This document shows positions 40,045 to 46,738 of a stretch of 63,626 bases of DNA, one piece after another. A program made the translations under genes and the position numbers. The DNA is from Alicyclobacillus sp. (GTDB taxonomy: Bacteria; Bacillota; Bacilli; Alicyclobacillales; Alicyclobacillaceae). The notes beneath the pieces are model-generated. The model had not been told where the DNA came from, searched no databases, and saw nothing but the letters and a program-made list of their open reading frames with translations. The stretch lies in NCBI GenBank assembly GCA_023511725.1, contig JAIMAY010000012.1, forward strand, positions 1 to 63,626, in the 5' to 3' direction. Numbering within the stretch: the first letter of the stretch is position 1; the number at the start of each line of letters is the position of its first letter.

Positions 40045-40249
40045 GATGGCCATGCAGCGGTTGGAAGAGACGGTGCGTCGCTTGGAGTCGGCTGATCTCC
40101 CGCTGGACCAGGCCATCGCCGCGTACCAGGAAGCGATGTACCTGGTGAAGTACTGCAGGGAGCAGCTGGATCGGGCGGAACTCGAGATCGCCAAGCTGGT
40201 TGAACAGCCGGATGGGGTTCGTGTCGAGAGGTTCGGGGAGGGCGCCTGA
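39992..40249 (+). CDS. xseB: exodeoxyribonuclease VII small subunit
   Basis: 85 residues. LTFEMAMQRLEETVRRLES and LDQAIAAYQEAM are the small-subunit signature. Begins inside xseA (53-nt overlap) with GGAGAGGA 7 nt upstream, so tight stoichiometric coupling is likely. Confidence 0.94.
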   Translation: METQHEMTAENRSDLTFEMAMQRLEETVRRLESADLPLDQAIAAYQEAMYLVKYCREQLDRAELEIAKLVEQPDGVRVERFGEGA

Positions 40250-41136
40250 TGTCCATTGACGCCGCGCGTGAGTACCTGCAGACCCAGGGCAAGGCTGTCG
40301 ACGCCTATCTTGCGCAGATGTTTGCGTCGCACACGCGCCCTGCACGGTTGTTCGAAGCGATGAACTACAGTCTTTTGGGCGGAGGCAAGCGCCTTCGCCC
40401 TGTCCTATGTCTCGCGGCGGCGCGCGCTCTCGGCCGTGACGAGGTCGAGGTGCTGCCGGTTGCGGCCGCCATCGAACTGGTCCATTGCTACTCGCTTATC
40501 CACGATGACCTACCCGCGATGGACAACGATGATCTTCGCCGCGGCAAACCAACGAATCATCGCGTATTCGGCGAGGCGCTGGCCATCCTCGCAGGTGACG
40601 CCCTGCTCACCTACGCCTTCGAGCAGTTGTCGCGTCCACTGGCTATACCGGCGGACCGGCAACTGCGGGCGATCCATGTGTTGGCGCATGCCGCCGGATG
40701 CTACGGGATGGTGGCCGGACAGGCGGAAGACATCCTGCAGACCGGGGGAACCGGTGACGCCGCAACCCTGGAGTTTATCCATCTTCACAAAACGGCGAAG
40801 CTACTGGCGGCGTCCGTTGAGATGGGGGCCATTGTTGCCGGAGCAGATGCCCGGCAGGTGGAAGCGCTGCGCGAGTATGGCATCCACCTTGGATTGGCGT
40901 TTCAAATCATGGATGACCTGCTGGATGTGATAGGCACCACAGAAGAGTTGGGAAAGAGCGCGGGCGCGGACCAGCAGTTGGACAAACTGACATATCCGAA
41001 GCTGTTCGGTGTGGAAGCGACGGAGAAGCTGGCGCATGATGCGGTTCTGCGCGCCAAGCAGGCGCTGCAGGCGGGCGGCATTGCATCCGATGTGCTGTTC
41101 GGGATGGCGGATTTCGTGATCCGCCGTCGGAGTTGA
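40249..41136 (+). CDS. ispA: farnesyl diphosphate synthase (polyprenyl synthetase)
   Basis: 295 residues. First Asp-rich motif DDLPAMDNDD, second FQIMDDLLDV, plus GGGKRLRP and the KTAKL/LLAAS stretch. Makes C15 (or longer) prenyl diphosphate. Its stop precedes the OLE RNA locus, the arrangement known from other extremophilic Bacillota. Confidence 0.94.
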   Translation: MSIDAAREYLQTQGKAVDAYLAQMFASHTRPARLFEAMNYSLLGGGKRLRPVLCLAAARALGRDEVEVLPVAAAIELVHCYSLIHDDLPAMDNDDLRRGKPTNHRVFGEALAILAGDALLTYAFEQLSRPLAIPADRQLRAIHVLAHAAGCYGMVAGQAEDILQTGGTGDAATLEFIHLHKTAKLLAASVEMGAIVAGADARQVEALREYGIHLGLAFQIMDDLLDVIGTTEELGKSAGADQQLDKLTYPKLFGVEATEKLAHDAVLRAKQALQAGGIASDVLFGMADFVIRRRS

Positions 41137-41280
41137 GCGCAATTTGCTGTCCAGCGCTGTTCAACCCAGCATACGAGAGCACCGCTGCGATTGGACAAGC
41201 CTGATCCGGCTCGCTCACGATGCACCGCCTGTGGCGGCAGATTTCAGCCGGCGAGCGAATTCGGAGCCGCCATCGGCGTA

Positions 41281-41289
41281 TGCTATAAT
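41281..41289 (+). promoter_or_regulatory. extended -10 promoter of the OLE RNA
   Basis: Perfect TG-C-TATAAT at 41281-41289, placing the RNA start at about 41296. The -35 region (TTCGGA) is weak. Confidence 0.6.
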
Positions 41290-41295
41290 GACGTC

Positions 41296-41905
41296 ACGTA
41301 TCACGGGTGGCGCAGTATTCTAGTCAACCGTCCGTTCCTGAAGGCGGGGCTAAAAATCCGCCAAAGGGCACATCGATGAAGTTCCTGGTGTTGGCTTGAG
41401 GCGCCCAGCCTTGGGTTGATGCTGGGAGTTAAGAAAGTTGGGACGTCCGCAATGGCATGCGGATTCCCCCCAGCTTTCGCGGAGGCCCAAGTGCGTGGTT
41501 CCCTCGCGGAACTACGGCTTGGGGGATGAACCTGCATGCGGAGCCCATCTGTGTGCAGCGTAGCCTGCCTTGAGTGGCACGGAGGGATCATGGGGTTCAG
41601 GTGCCGCACCCTGGCCAAGGTGCGGCAGCCGGTGCCGTGTGAAATCCGTGTTGCAAAAGAGGCTAGGGAACGGGTGCGGTTGTCGCGGAAAACGCCTAGA
41701 CTGTTCGCGGTCAGCGTGGCTCTTTGAGGATTGCAGTGTGGACTCAGTGGTAATCTAGTCTGGCAGACGGCGACGCTGCCAAGGGGTGCTGAAAGGGAAA
41801 CCGCCTTTGCGGCGACGCGGGGTGCGCCCTTGGGAAAACCTACTAGACCTAAGCCACAACGTTTACTCAAAGAGCTGCCACCCGTGTCTGTACTTATCTC
41901 GGGCC
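41296..41905 (+). ncRNA. ole: OLE RNA (ornate, large, extremophilic RNA)
   Basis: About 610 nt without a credible protein frame between ispA and a small polytopic membrane-protein gene followed by dxs, the diagnostic place of OLE RNA. It is rich in local hairpins, for example GCCGCACC/GGTGCGGC (41603-41626) and GTGGTTCC/GGAACTAC with flanking CCCAAG/CTTGGG, and a 3' stem pairing CCAAGGG near 41778 with CCCTTGG near 41828. In Bacillus halodurans OLE RNA forms a membrane-bound particle with OapA linked to stress and Mg2+ tolerance. I identified it by position, size, structure and partner gene; ends are approximate. Confidence 0.85.
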
Positions 41906-41926
41906 GGAGGCCGATACATACATCAT

Positions 41927-42514
41927 ATGAAGAGGAACAGCGTGCGCGGCGCGTTGCCGTTCGTCTTGACCGTGGCCGTGCTGACCCTTCCCATCAGCGG
42001 GATCTTTGATGTTTCGACCATTTTTCTGGACAAAGTGCCCTGGTATGTGGGACTGGCCATCGTGGTGGGCATCGTGTTGATCGGTGCCCTTTTTGACATG
42101 CTCGGCGTGGCTTCTGCTGCAGCCAGAGAAACCCCTTTCCATGCCATGGCATCCAAACGTGTGTTCGGTGCCCGTCGCGCCATCGACATCGTTCGAAACG
42201 CGGAGAAGGTGTCCAGCATCTGCAGCGATGTCATCGGGGATATTGCGGGTGTGCTGAGCGGTGCAGGTTCCCTGGCGGTGTCGGTGCAACTGTCAGACGC
42301 CCTGGGTGCCGAAGGGTGGTACCGTGAACTGAGCGTGATTGGCGTCACGGCGCTGACGACGTCCCTCACGGTGGGTGCCAAGGCGCTGGGCAAGACCATC
42401 GCCATTCATGCCCCAACATCCATCATCTTGTTTGCGGCGCGAATGGTGGATACACTGACTCTAGCCAGATCGCGCGGCAACAGGCCGCGATCGAAACGGA
42501 AAAGAACGAGGTGA
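41927..42514 (+). CDS. oapA: OLE-associated protein OapA
   Basis: 195-residue membrane protein with about four hydrophobic helices (near 10-28, 38-60, 108-125, 140-160). [26 protein letters not shown] and the basic C-terminal tail [14 protein letters not shown] are visible; the tail could contact RNA. Position directly after the OLE RNA and before dxs is that of OapA. ATG at 41927 has GGAGG 16 nt upstream, rather far; GTG at 41942, 6-7 nt after GAGGAA, is an alternative. Overlaps dxs by 4 nt. Confidence 0.85.
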
Positions 42515-44388
42515 TTGTCACGCTGCTCGATACCGTGCAGGATCCGCAGACCCTCAAAAGGCTGAGCGGATCGGAACTGTTACAGTTGGCACAGGAGATT
42601 CGAGCCTTCTTGATTCGTTCCGTCAGCGAGACCGGGGGCCACTTCGGAGCCAACCTCGGTGTGGTGGAACTGACCATCGCGCTGCACAAGGTCTTCGACA
42701 GTCCCCGCGACAAGATCATTTGGGACGTCGGTCACCAGGCCTATGTCCACAAACTCCTCACGGGCAGGCGTGAGCAGTTCGCAACATTGCGCCAATATAA
42801 AGGGCTTGCAGGTTTCCCCAAGCGTTCGGAGAGTCCGCACGACGCGTTTGGCACGGGTCACGCCAGTACCTCCATTTCCGCCGGCCTCGGGATGGCCATT
42901 GCACGAGACCTGCGCGGTGAAAACTACCGGGTGGTATGCGTGATCGGCGACGGCGCGCTGACTGGCGGCATGGCCATGGAGGCGCTGAATCACGCGGGGC
43001 ACGTCGGTACGGACCTGCTGGTGATCCTGAACGACAACGAGATGTCCATCGCGGAGAATGTGGGCGCGCTATCCACATATCTCACCAAACTCCGGACTGA
43101 TCCGGCCTATTCGCGCCTCAAGGCAGAGATGGAGCAGATGCTGAATCGTCTGCCCGCCATCGGGCCGAAATTGACCCGCTCGTTGGAGAAGGTCAAGGAC
43201 GCCATGCGGAACGCGCTGGTGCCGGGACAGTTGTTTGAAGCGTTCGGCTTCAAGTATTTCGGGCCCGTGGACGGGCACGACCTGCCGACGCTCATCAACG
43301 TCCTGGAGGACGTGCGCAGAACGCGCGGACCGGTGCTTGTGCACGTCGTTACCAAGAAGGGAAAAGGGTACGATCCGGCCGAAAGCGCTCCGGATAAGTT
43401 TCACGCCTGGCCAACCCAGAGTAAACCGGGTGCCCCGCCGTCGTACACCAACGTGTTCGCGGACACGCTGATCCAGTTGGCCGAGCGCGATCCCCGCATC
43501 GTCGCCATCACAGCGGCCATGCCCAGCGGCACCGGGCTTTCGAAATTCGCGAAGCGATTCCCGGATCGGTGTTTTGATGTGGGCATCGCCGAACAGCATG
43601 CAACCACCTTCTCTGCAGGGCTGGCTGCCATGGGCATGCGGCCCGTATTCGCGGTGTATTCCACATTTTTGCAAAGGGCATACGATCAGGTCATCCATGA
43701 CGTTTGCATTCAGAACCTGCCGGTCGTGTTCGCGATTGATCGCGCCGGCCTCGTGGGAGCAGACGGAGAGACGCATCAGGGTGTGTTTGATATCGCCTAC
43801 CTGCGCACGGTCCCCAATATCACCATCATGATGCCCAAGGATGAAAATGAACTGCGGCACATGTTGTACACGGCGCTTCAAATCCCGGGACCTGCGGCCG
43901 TCCGCTATCCGCGGGCGGATGGCCTGGGCGTCGCGCTTGACGACACCCTGGAGGCGCTCCCCATCGGTCGTGCCGAAACGGTCCGGGAAGGCGACGATGT
44001 GGCGTTTATCGCGGCGGGGCCGATGGTTGAGGTGTGTCGCCGGGCGGCGGACATCTTGGCTGAACGGGATGGTCTGCAAGCGACCGTGGTGAACATTCGC
44101 TTCATCAAGCCGTTGGACCAGGAACTGCTGGCATCGCTCGCTCAGCGCATGCCGTTGGTCACTGTCGAAGAAGCTTCGCTGGCGGGCGGTCTGGGGTCCG
44201 CGGTCTTGGAGGTACTGGCCGATCACGGCATCCCGGCCCCGCTGCTGCGCCGGGGCATTCCGGACAAATTTGTCGAGCAGGGATCTCGCGGCGAACTTCT
44301 GAGAGACCTGCGGCTGGACGCCGAATCTTTGGCCGTCGACGCGGCCCAGTTTGTCCGCGCGTGCCGGAACAAGGCTTCCGTACTATGA
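42511..44388 (+). CDS. dxs: 1-deoxy-D-xylulose-5-phosphate synthase
   Basis: 625 residues, thiamine-diphosphate enzyme. [16 protein letters not shown], the ThDP motif [18 protein letters not shown], and transketolase-like PYR domain ([15 protein letters not shown]). First step of the MEP isoprenoid pathway, coupled to ispA upstream. GTG start overlaps the oapA stop. Confidence 0.97.
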
Positions 44389-44436: not shown

Positions 44437-45303
44437 ATGACGAATAGGCGGAAAGTGCGGCTGGATATGCTGTTGGTAGAGAAGGGAGCGTTTCCAAGCC
44501 GCGAAGCCGCCAAACGAGCCATCATGGCGGGTCAGGTACGGGTCAACGGACAACGCGCGGACAAGCCGGGCCAGTTCGTGGATCCCGAGGTACGGATCGA
44601 CGTGAACCGACCGGCTCACGCCTTCGTCAGCCGCGGAGGATTGAAACTGGAGCGCGCGTTGACGGTATTTCCTGTCCATGTGGAAGGCAGGGTCGTGATC
44701 GACGTCGGTGCATCCACGGGCGGTTTTACCGACTGCGCGCTCAGGCATGGCGCGACGCTCGTGTACGCGGTGGATGTCGGGTACGGTCAGCTGGACTGGC
44801 GCCTACGCAATGACCCGCGTGTGCGAGTGATGGAAAGGACGAATTTTCGTTACGTGGACCCCGGTCAGTTCGGCCCTCCGCCGGACCTCGCTGTGATGGA
44901 TGTATCATTCATTTCGATTCGCCTGTTGTGGCCCAAACTCCTCGAGGTTCTCGCAAGGCCGGCTGACGTGGTGAGCTTGGTCAAGCCGCAGTTCGAGGCC
45001 GGCCGAGAAAGCGTCGGGAAAGGCGGGATTGTGCGGGATCCGGTGATCCACCTCCGGGTGTTACGCGAGATCGCGGAGTTCACACGGGTCGCTGGCGCCA
45101 TCCTCGGCGGGGTTGACTTCTCGCCCATCACAGGCGGGGATGGCAACATCGAGTACCTGATGTGGTGGTCGATTCCGGCGGAAGCGGCTGAAAACGCCCC
45201 ACAATTTCCTGATGAGCGCTTGTGTGATATTGTGCGTGCAGCCTGGCTTGAACACACTGGCCAGGACGTCGGTGGCGTACTTCGGCTCGGCGCTCATGGA
45301 TGA
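44437..45303 (+). CDS. tlyA: TlyA family rRNA methyltransferase (YqxC)
   Basis: 288 residues: N-terminal S4 RNA-binding domain (about 5-65, RLDMLLVEKGAFPSREAAK) and an FtsJ-like SAM domain with DVGASTGGFTDCAL. Old annotations call it hemolysin; TlyA proteins 2'-O-methylate rRNA. AAGGAG 12 nt upstream of ATG 44437. Confidence 0.92.
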   Translation: MTNRRKVRLDMLLVEKGAFPSREAAKRAIMAGQVRVNGQRADKPGQFVDPEVRIDVNRPAHAFVSRGGLKLERALTVFPVHVEGRVVIDVGASTGGFTDCALRHGATLVYAVDVGYGQLDWRLRNDPRVRVMERTNFRYVDPGQFGPPPDLAVMDVSFISIRLLWPKLLEVLARPADVVSLVKPQFEAGRESVGKGGIVRDPVIHLRVLREIAEFTRVAGAILGGVDFSPITGGDGNIEYLMWWSIPAEAAENAPQFPDERLCDIVRAAWLEHTGQDVGGVLRLGAHG

Positions 45304-45835
45304 CGGAAGTGGCGACGGGATGACGGCACATGAGGCTTTTGCCATCGTGCTGGCGTTCGCTTGCCTGTGGTTGACCGGACGGTCCATCGTGTCACATGTC
45401 AAGGCGGCACGCCAATCCGCCCCGCTGGAAGGCCGGCGGACACAGGTTCGTGAATGGTTGATGCGTTCCGGCTATGACGTGTTGCCTGCCGTGGAGCCCG
45501 TGGTGTGGCGCGGTTACGTGGATGGTGAAATGGTGGAGCGCACGTCACGGGTAGATTTTATCGCCCGGCGAGCGGGTCATGAGTATGCGGTGGTGGCGGC
45601 GGATGAGGCCACCGTGGCGCAGCCCGCCGAACAGTTGTGCGCAGAGTGGTTCCCGGTGCGCACCGCCCTCGACGTGGCGGGCGTTCTTTTCGTGTGCCCG
45701 GAAGGCGAAACGGTGCGAGTTGTCGAATTTGAAGTGCAGCACCCGACGCGTGTTCGCCGTCGCCGTTGGGGGCGCCGTGCTGGGCTGGTGTTGGCCGGCG
45801 TTCTGATGGCACTGGCGTGGTTTCACGCGGTATGA
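45296..45835 (+). CDS. hypothetical bitopic membrane protein
   Basis: About 179 residues: N-terminal membrane helix (about 12-30), a soluble middle domain and a C-terminal helix (about 160-178). The middle part contains SRVDFIARRAGHEYAVVAADE, which recalls the beta-strand core of restriction-endonuclease-like folds but lacks the E-x-K pair, so no nuclease claim is made. It occupies the place where argR/ahrC lies in Bacillus. ATG at 45296 overlaps the tlyA stop; ATG at 45320 is an alternative. Confidence 0.65.
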   Translation: MDDGSGDGMTAHEAFAIVLAFACLWLTGRSIVSHVKAARQSAPLEGRRTQVREWLMRSGYDVLPAVEPVVWRGYVDGEMVERTSRVDFIARRAGHEYAVVAADEATVAQPAEQLCAEWFPVRTALDVAGVLFVCPEGETVRVVEFEVQHPTRVRRRRWGRRAGLVLAGVLMALAWFHAV

Positions 45836-45856: not shown

Positions 45857-46714
45857 TTGCGACGGGTTGCGCTCGTGGCGAACCAGGATCGGCCGCGCGC
45901 TTGCGAGGTTCTGCCGTTGCTCCAGGGGTTGCTTCAAGAGCATGACTTTTCAACCGTCCTGTACAGGATTGGACGGGGGTTGCCAGACCTGCAGACACAG
46001 ATGGATGGCCTCACCCTCGAAGGTGTAGAACTCGCATTGGTCCTGGGGGGCGACGGAACGCTGCTTGGCGTGGCGCGCGCCTTGGCGCCGTTGGGCATTC
46101 CGCTCTTGGGCATCAATGTTGGACATCTAGGCTTTCTCACGGAAGCGGATCCCGCCGATCTCGAGGAGACGGTCCGGCGCATCGCGGATCGTGAGTATGA
46201 TCTGGAACGTCGACTGATGTTGGAGGCTGTCCTGGAGCGAGATGGCCACGTGTTGGAGCGCTTCGTGGGTCTGAACGACGCCGGCATTGCAAAGGGCTCG
46301 TTCGCGCGGATGGTGCGGATTGAGGCGTACGTGGATGATGTTTTTGTGGATTCGTACAGCGGCGACGGCATTATCGTCTCCACGCCTACGGGCTCGACGG
46401 GCTACTCCCTGTCGTGCGGAGGCCCGATTGTGATTCCAAGGCTCCAGGTACTTTTACTGACACCGATTTGTCCGCACACCCTGTTTTCCAGACCTTGTGT
46501 AATCGACGCCAACCAAGAGATTCAGCTGGTCGTCGACGCGGCGCATGATGACATCGGCCTTACCGTCGACGGACAGGTGGGCATCCGCTTGCAACCGCGA
46601 GACGTGGTTCGAGTTCGGCGAGCATCCAGCGATGCGGTGTTGGTGAAGTGGCGGGATCGAGAATTCTTCACCGTCTTGCGTCACAAGTTGCGTCACAACA
46701 ACGGCCAAGCTTGA
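45857..46714 (+). CDS. nadK: NAD kinase
   Basis: 285 residues. GGDGTLLG motif (about 64-71), GINVGHLGFLTE, and the substrate motif YSGDGIIVSTPTGSTGYSLSCGGPI. Makes NADP. TTG start with GGGAGGGGAGAGCGA upstream. Confidence 0.95.
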   Translation: MRRVALVANQDRPRACEVLPLLQGLLQEHDFSTVLYRIGRGLPDLQTQMDGLTLEGVELALVLGGDGTLLGVARALAPLGIPLLGINVGHLGFLTEADPADLEETVRRIADREYDLERRLMLEAVLERDGHVLERFVGLNDAGIAKGSFARMVRIEAYVDDVFVDSYSGDGIIVSTPTGSTGYSLSCGGPIVIPRLQVLLLTPICPHTLFSRPCVIDANQEIQLVVDAAHDDIGLTVDGQVGIRLQPRDVVRVRRASSDAVLVKWRDREFFTVLRHKLRHNNGQA

Positions 46715-46738
46715 TGTCACATCACGGGGGTCGTGCGC

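Follow-up and report, generated by a model that had tools for sequence, protein, structure and literature searches.

An OLE RNA and its OapA gene between ispA and dxs in an Alicyclobacillus genome

The OLE locus

The window analysed in this study, the whole 63,626-nt stretch of contig JAIMAY010000012.1 from an Alicyclobacillus sp., carries an OLE RNA gene between ispA and dxs, followed directly by the gene of a membrane protein, OapA. OLE RNAs rank with the largest structured RNAs of bacteria for which no biochemical function is known. The main features of the locus are the following.

40249-41136, + strand: ispA (farnesyl diphosphate synthase), NF045485, 357.4 bits
41281-41289, + strand: extended -10 promoter TGCTATAAT, read from the sequence
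41291-41897, + strand: OLE RNA, full length (RF01071), cmscan 519.7 bits, E 1.5e-149, model positions 1-616
41927-42514, + strand: oapA, 195 aa, ATG start, alternative GTG at 41942, overlapping dxs by 4 nt
42511-44388, + strand: dxs, TIGR00204, 861.8 bits, 4 nt shared with oapA

An initial annotation had seen about 790 nt without a credible gene at this place, with an extended -10 promoter and strong local folding, and had proposed an OLE RNA. Each of these points was borne out. The gap between the end of ispA (41136) and the start of oapA (41927) is 790 nt, the promoter element lies at 41281-41289, and the proposed Infernal search with the Rfam OLE model returned a significant match over the whole model, at 519.7 bits against a gathering score of 50. 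This was the sole Rfam match in the window to reach its gathering score, and one OLE RNA was found in the genome. By the published bit-score bands (390 or more), which were set with another model, the RNA is full-length. Its minimum free energy is -291.1 kcal/mol (z -6.97), and none of 20 shuffles with the same dinucleotides folded as well.

Transcription would be expected to start at about 41296. A site of the loose pattern TGNTANNNT was found 6 to 49 nt 5' of the point where the OLE model begins in each of 39 OLE loci inspected, and a promoter scan requiring a -35 box found none where 0.2 were expected. No terminator-like site was detected on the + strand from 41100 to 42000. The missing terminator before oapA agrees with the 3' processing of OLE that has been reported for Halalkalibacterium halodurans (PMC9723947; PMC11332333).

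The surrounding gene run reads folD-xseAB-ispA-OLE-oapA-dxs-tlyA-nadK-recN, with nadK and recN identified by visual reading of the translations alone. An uncharacterised ORF of 207 aa (45212-45835), without a confident family match, lies between tlyA and nadK. The nadK-recN interval (46714-46733) holds no argR, the argR of this genome being located on another contig (C63). It was also observed that TACATA stands directly 5' of the oapA start (41906-41929), as in many relatives, and that the window and a few relatives carry extra bases between TACATA and the Shine-Dalgarno site.

Structure and conservation of the OLE RNA

The 46 OLE RNAs collected comprised 39 distinct sequences, of which alignment A2 omits one with a long insert (L087). 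RNAalifold was run on the remaining 38 (window and 37 relatives) without Rfam's structure. The following elements were placed on the window sequence.

41305-41311, + strand: P1, 5' strand GGGTGGC, pairing with 41877-41883 GCCACCC
41312-41323, + strand: P2, 5' strand, pairing with 41696-41704, 9 predicted pairs
41325-41339, + strand: P3 and P3.1, 5' strand, pairing with 41676-41682 and 41666-41672
41343-41362, + strand: P4 hairpin with A-rich loop, CTAAAAATCCG invariant in 38 sequences
41613-41616, + strand: GGCC palindrome of loop L9.3, read from the sequence
41758-41831, + strand: P12.2-P13 region, two GGCGACG loops present

The consensus helices are kept with compensatory change among the 38 RNAs: for 85 of the 194 RNAalifold pairs, at least one sequence differs at both partners, counts made without a shuffled control. 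By the same measure such changes affect four of the seven pairs of P1, a helix that joins the two ends of the RNA but is unpaired in the Rfam structure, and 10 of the 14 pairs of P3 and P3.1. The pairs of P2, a region reported as one of the OapA sites (PMC12265935), are constant save for one cell and thus too invariant for covariation. The loops of P4 and L9.3 correspond to the published dimer bridges B1 and B3, respectively (PMC12286853), and P12.2-P13 to the published OapB-binding region (PMC9723947). GGCC occurs within positions 281-420 of about 57 of 60 RNAs, a rough count by string search in which six RNAs were cropped at anchors. The candidate kissing-loop bases are invariant in the 38-sequence set and offer no variation to compare.

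A membrane-spanning role has been proposed in the OLE literature for the P3/P3.1 helix. Its 5' strand is 15 nt long in 53 of 60 RNAs (14 nt in two, 16 nt in five) while its sequence varies (mean identity to the window 0.65), and this fixed length was considered as a sign of a membrane span. The sign was rejected since P6 (47 nt in 51/60, identity 0.72) and P13 (50-52 nt in 60/60, identity 0.66) behave alike, so that the constant length of P3 does not speak specifically for a membrane span.

Most of the 600 nt are conserved, with a mean column identity of 82%. At three columns the window RNA deviates from a consensus shared by at least 97% of the 37 relatives. Two of these departures are neighbours (41733-41734); there A-U becomes G-U and U-G becomes C-G, so that both predicted pairs are preserved. 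The value of this RNA as a further sequence for covariation, put forward by the initial annotation, is real and modest, as 40 of the 59 genomes of the order already carry OLE; the gain from the changes at 41733-41734 appears small. Compared with the OLE RNAs of the H. halodurans and Clostridium types, the window copy has the same full model match, stems, own promoter and ispA-OLE-oapA-dxs order, and its genome has the same OapA, OapB, OapC and bS21 genes; the differences amount to ordinary sequence divergence and the three departures just described.

Partner genes and distribution

Genes for both OapB and OapC, the partners expected of an OLE ribonucleoprotein (RNP), are present in the genome. 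OapB was recognized by its match to PDB chain 7k9b_A, 'OLE-associated protein B' (E 1.5e-24), and OapC by its match to the YbxF chain 3v7e_A (E 8.3e-21); the adjoining genes (adk, infA, rpoC and rpsL) were likewise identified by visual reading of the translations alone. The genome also encodes bS21, and ArgR on another contig. No CNNM match was found in it at E <= 0.001.

OLE was found in 40 of the 41 genomes of the same family and in none of the 18 of the sister family, and OapA in all 41 (a single match per genome) and none of 18, respectively. The single OLE miss (G026) is an assembly gap, the contig ending at 11004, about 100 bases past oapA; in the counterpart record of that locus (L061) the last 89 positions of the OLE model are present. 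Long CNNM (MpfA-like) proteins, called on the CNNM match alone (a score over 150 bits, the ORFs being 440-502 aa long), occur in five of the 41 genomes of the same family compared with 16 of the 18 of the sister family. This opposite distribution fits the published OLE-MpfA anticorrelation, although within a single order it amounts to no more than one contrast. Five genomes (G004, G007, G008, G014 and G030) have both OLE and a long CNNM protein, which indicates that replacement is not strict; two of them, G007 and G030, are 9-10% contaminated.

OLE is present in 48 of the 55 OapA loci scanned. For the seven loci without it, OLE lies elsewhere in the genome in five cases and was found nowhere in the genome searched for L089 and L107. 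Two members of the Sporolactobacillaceae, Pullulanibacillus camelliae (L085, 4001-4573) and Caenibacillus caldisaponilyticus (L086, 4001-4567), carry a second oapA that has no OLE nearby (within 4 kb), each genome also having a single OLE match followed by oapA and dxs. The second copies share 54% and 59% identity with the window OapA and 41-44% with the OLE-linked copies, and they nest in a clade of 19 rows otherwise made up of the window's own family and near relatives (support 100/99), in a tree which omits L121 and in which long branches elsewhere call for care. The simplest reading of these comparisons would be that oapA was transferred without OLE. In three Clostridia (L091, L095 and L096) the single oapA found is on a contig other than that of OLE, and no oapA was seen beside OLE within the fetched stretch, which was short for the genome of L091. 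These three are an exception to the usual tandem arrangement of OLE and oapA.

Two records of unusual origin were also encountered. Plasmid pMM59_01 (504 kb) of Pusillibacter faecalis, typed as conjugative, carries a full-model OLE of 399.8 bits (L121, 5265-8376) accompanied by oapA, dxs, tlyA, nadK, argR and recN. No relatives were found in viral contigs. MT835614.1, an UNVERIFIED and unannotated record named 'Bacteriophage sp.', encodes an OapA (L122, 1022-1429) of 31% identity with DxxxD and both lysines; no OLE was found in the 21 kb of this record, which could be a bacterial contig.

The OapA protein

The initial annotation also took the open reading frame before dxs for OapA, and proposed its alignment with relatives. 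The window protein is 59-73% identical to the proteins encoded at the same place in 18 relatives, has a CNNM-like fold and carries the DxxxD motif, all of which confirm the assignment, and its gene lies beside OLE. Asp57, Asp101 and Asp105 are invariant in all 32 aligned OapA proteins, the last two forming the DxxxD motif. That alignment excludes L078 and L089, whose given range held a stop, five sequences dropped when close relatives were thinned (L012, L019, L029, L060 and L065), and four left out as a precaution (L091, L093, L098 and L102).

An unusual start had been claimed for oapA, and this holds in part. The distance from GGAGG to the ATG is indeed 16 nt, and long spacing is partly shared, being 13 or 14 nt in L008, L012, L014 and L028 (read by eye). 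The ATG at 41927 aligns with the relatives' start (MKK/MKR). The GTG at codon 6, with AGAGGA 5 nt upstream, is a possible alternative start.

The claim of a four-helix protein likewise held for the structural model, in which four membrane helices (6-34, 39-65, 92-125 and 131-161) are followed by a C-terminal helix (163-185), and did not hold in the hydropathy scan, which gave six overlapping peaks. The very basic tail overlapping dxs was found as described, with nine K/R among the last 16 residues. The model was built from 32 sequences (pLDDT 88.1); a first model from 19 close sequences had been discarded as poor (pLDDT 67.9). Four helices with a basic face, DxxxD and the absence of the CNNM proline, as expected of OapA, were all observed. 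The window protein resembles the known OapA in its four model helices, DxxxD, basic cytoplasmic loop and tail, CNNM-like fold and place next to OLE, and differs from it in the longer Shine-Dalgarno to ATG spacing and in having Ser165 where 18 of 18 aligned relatives have Pro.

The relation to CNNM proteins is seen mainly in the fold. PF01595 (CNNM) matches the window OapA at 18.7 bits, under the gathering score of 28.4, and weak matches (E <= 0.01) occur in 20 of the 32 OapA proteins. The model superposes on the transmembrane domain of the archaeal Mg2+ transporter MtCorB (7m1t_A) with Z 13.8 and rmsd 2.6 over 132 residues, and four CNNM entries top the structure list (Z 11.6-13.8), the next unrelated row scoring 8.1, with the caveat that a common arrangement of helices can bring largely helical models to a Z near 14. 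Foldseek with the OapA model gave no match at E <= 0.001 (best E 6.5e-03), the VIA list being a second look at Foldseek's own matches, and the OapA profile (alignment A3) gave none against PDB sequences at E <= 1. The fold match to MtCorB repeats the result of Fernando and Breaker on H. halodurans OapA, for which a CNNM-like fold was previously reported (PMC11332333).

The putative former ion site

In MtCorB, the ligands of Mg2+ are Ser21, Ser25, Ser71, Glu111 and two main-chain oxygens, and Glu111, Ile112 and Pro114 are reported as invariant from archaea to humans (PMC8242095). Charge reversal at the human equivalent of Glu111, E357K, is a disease allele (PMC8242095). Transport by TtCorB was lowered by mutation of that Glu, of the Pro or of the Lys, and was raised in three other Mg2+-site mutants (PMC8242095).

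In three MAFFT modes, Lys152 of OapA was aligned with the Glu of MpfA (place 113 in L038), Gly155 with its Pro and Lys156 with its Lys; phmmer in turn aligned the MpfA motif with Glu111-Pro114-Lys115 of MtCorB. The mapping of Lys152 onto the Glu rests on MAFFT and on one weak OapA-MpfA HMM alignment that agrees with it; the other HMM alignments are weak and lie mostly over other helices, the profile-profile comparison of OapA with MpfA gave no significant match (E 0.098), and the fold match supports the domain rather than single residues. Through two alignments, Asp57 falls at the place of Ser25.

All 12 aligned MpfA-like proteins have E-x-x-P-K. K-x-x-G-K together with Asp at place 57 was read in 85 OapA loci (63 distinct segments), which were selected by the DxxxD pattern, and are hence uninformative on DxxxD, and which include some genomes represented twice. 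L121 and L122, outside the search pattern and read by eye, retain this Asp and both lysines, the Gly being replaced by Ser or Leu (K-x-x-S-K and K-x-x-L-K). Lys thus stands at the place of Lys152 in 87 of 87 OapA loci read, and Gly at that of the Pro in 85. Compared with MpfA, CorB and CorC (PF01595), OapA shares the transmembrane domain fold, and it differs in an extra N-terminal helix, the lack of CBS and CorC domains, Lys for the Mg2+-binding Glu and Gly for the pi-turn Pro.

The invariant Lys argues against canonical CNNM Mg2+ transport by OapA, which, if the residue mapping is correct, would naturally possess the type of substitution by which a CNNM transporter is disabled. The absence of the proline and the DxxxD motif of OapA are both pointed out by Fernando and Breaker (PMC11332333). 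In term searches, no mention of the Glu-Lys change was found in the main text of that paper, in PMC12265935 or in PMC10898510.

Topology of OapA

With loops assigned by hand from the 32-sequence model, loop 66-99 contains more K/R than loops 28-40 and 122-134 combined in 32 of 32 aligned OapA proteins, the smallest difference being 4 and the median 6. In the window OapA the N-terminus and the tail are basic too. The one-sided charge predicts one topology with N and C termini inside, and on this model it counts against the antiparallel OapA dimers left open as a possibility in PMC12265935.

Discussion

The observation of the initial annotation was confirmed and its interpretation supported, and the locus appears as an ordinary member of the OLE family. 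The explanation that we consider best, at a probability of about 0.85, is that of an OLE RNP held at the membrane by OapA. OLE would be transcribed from its own extended -10 promoter and probably also within the gene run from folD to recN, with 3' processing, which is proposed because no terminator was found between OLE and oapA. The RNA, the family fold, the partner genes and the lack of a CNNM match in the genome were all computed here. By analogy with the work in Halalkalibacterium halodurans and Clostridium, from which membrane location, dimerisation and a stress role are inferred, the RNA would take the full-length OLE fold and dimerise via its conserved loops, OapA would hold it at the membrane, OapB and OapC (and bS21) would bind it, and the complex would have a role in stress and in Mg2+ homeostasis, for the most part in genomes that lack MpfA-like Mg2+ transporters. 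OapA binding near P2 and P4a, the dimer, the binding of OapB and OapC and the role in stress and Mg2+ have been reported in those systems (PMC12265935; PMC9723947; PMC12286853). To this we would add that OapA itself may be a membrane anchor of CNNM fold with a single topology (N and C termini in), and that with an invariant lysine in the former Mg2+ site it would move no Mg2+ by the canonical CNNM route.

It has been proposed that OapA is itself a CNNM-type transporter of Mg2+, or of another divalent ion, regulated by OLE RNA (PMC12265935; PMC11332333). The CNNM-like fold, the weak PF01595 matches in 20 of 32 OapA proteins and the distribution opposite to that of long CNNM proteins would all suit such a role. 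Asp57, Asp101 and Asp105, invariant in 32 OapA proteins, could form another ion site, and the finding that certain mutations of the Mg2+ site increase transport by TtCorB (PMC8242095) means that an altered site need not stop transport. Against this, the places of the Mg2+-coordinating Glu and the pi-turn Pro are taken in the alignments by an invariant Lys and by Gly, respectively, 195 aa leave no room for CBS and CorC domains, and the window OapA scores under the Pfam gathering threshold, so that we regard a transporter role as unlikely. Somewhat short of even odds, and hence offered tentatively, is a more specific form of the anchor explanation: OapA would be a charge-inverted relative of CNNM proteins rather than a transporter of their kind, the invariant Lys serving as a built-in cation, perhaps paired with Asp57 or with the DxxxD aspartates, in a protein of single orientation.

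The RNA might instead be merely a 5' leader, a cis-regulatory element of the oapA-dxs mRNA, and its position directly 5' of these genes with no terminator found between would be as expected of one. The oapA copies unlinked to OLE, namely the second copies in the two Sporolactobacillaceae and those on other contigs in the three Clostridia, indicate that oapA does not need an OLE leader; in addition, OLE has been described in the literature as a trans-acting, membrane-bound RNP, and most of its 600 nt are conserved. A leader function is on these grounds very improbable. That the OLE gene is a decayed remnant without function can practically be set aside: nothing was found for it, and it is contradicted by the mere three departures at columns of at least 97% agreement (37 sequences), two of which keep predicted pairs, by the open oapA frame and by the presence of the partner genes.

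This copy adds a case in which the core partners are present and no CNNM match is found in the genome. The Lys-for-Glu change bears on the published proposal that OapA is a divalent metal transporter, and the one-sided charge on the possibility of antiparallel dimers. If the charge-inverted reading is true, OapA would be a fixed-topology membrane socket for OLE RNA, sensing or handling of Mg2+ would fall to the RNA, and oapA could move between genomes without OLE. The interest of the locus lies in the tests it suggests for how OapA works, and the five genomes with both OLE and a long CNNM protein would be useful for testing redundancy.
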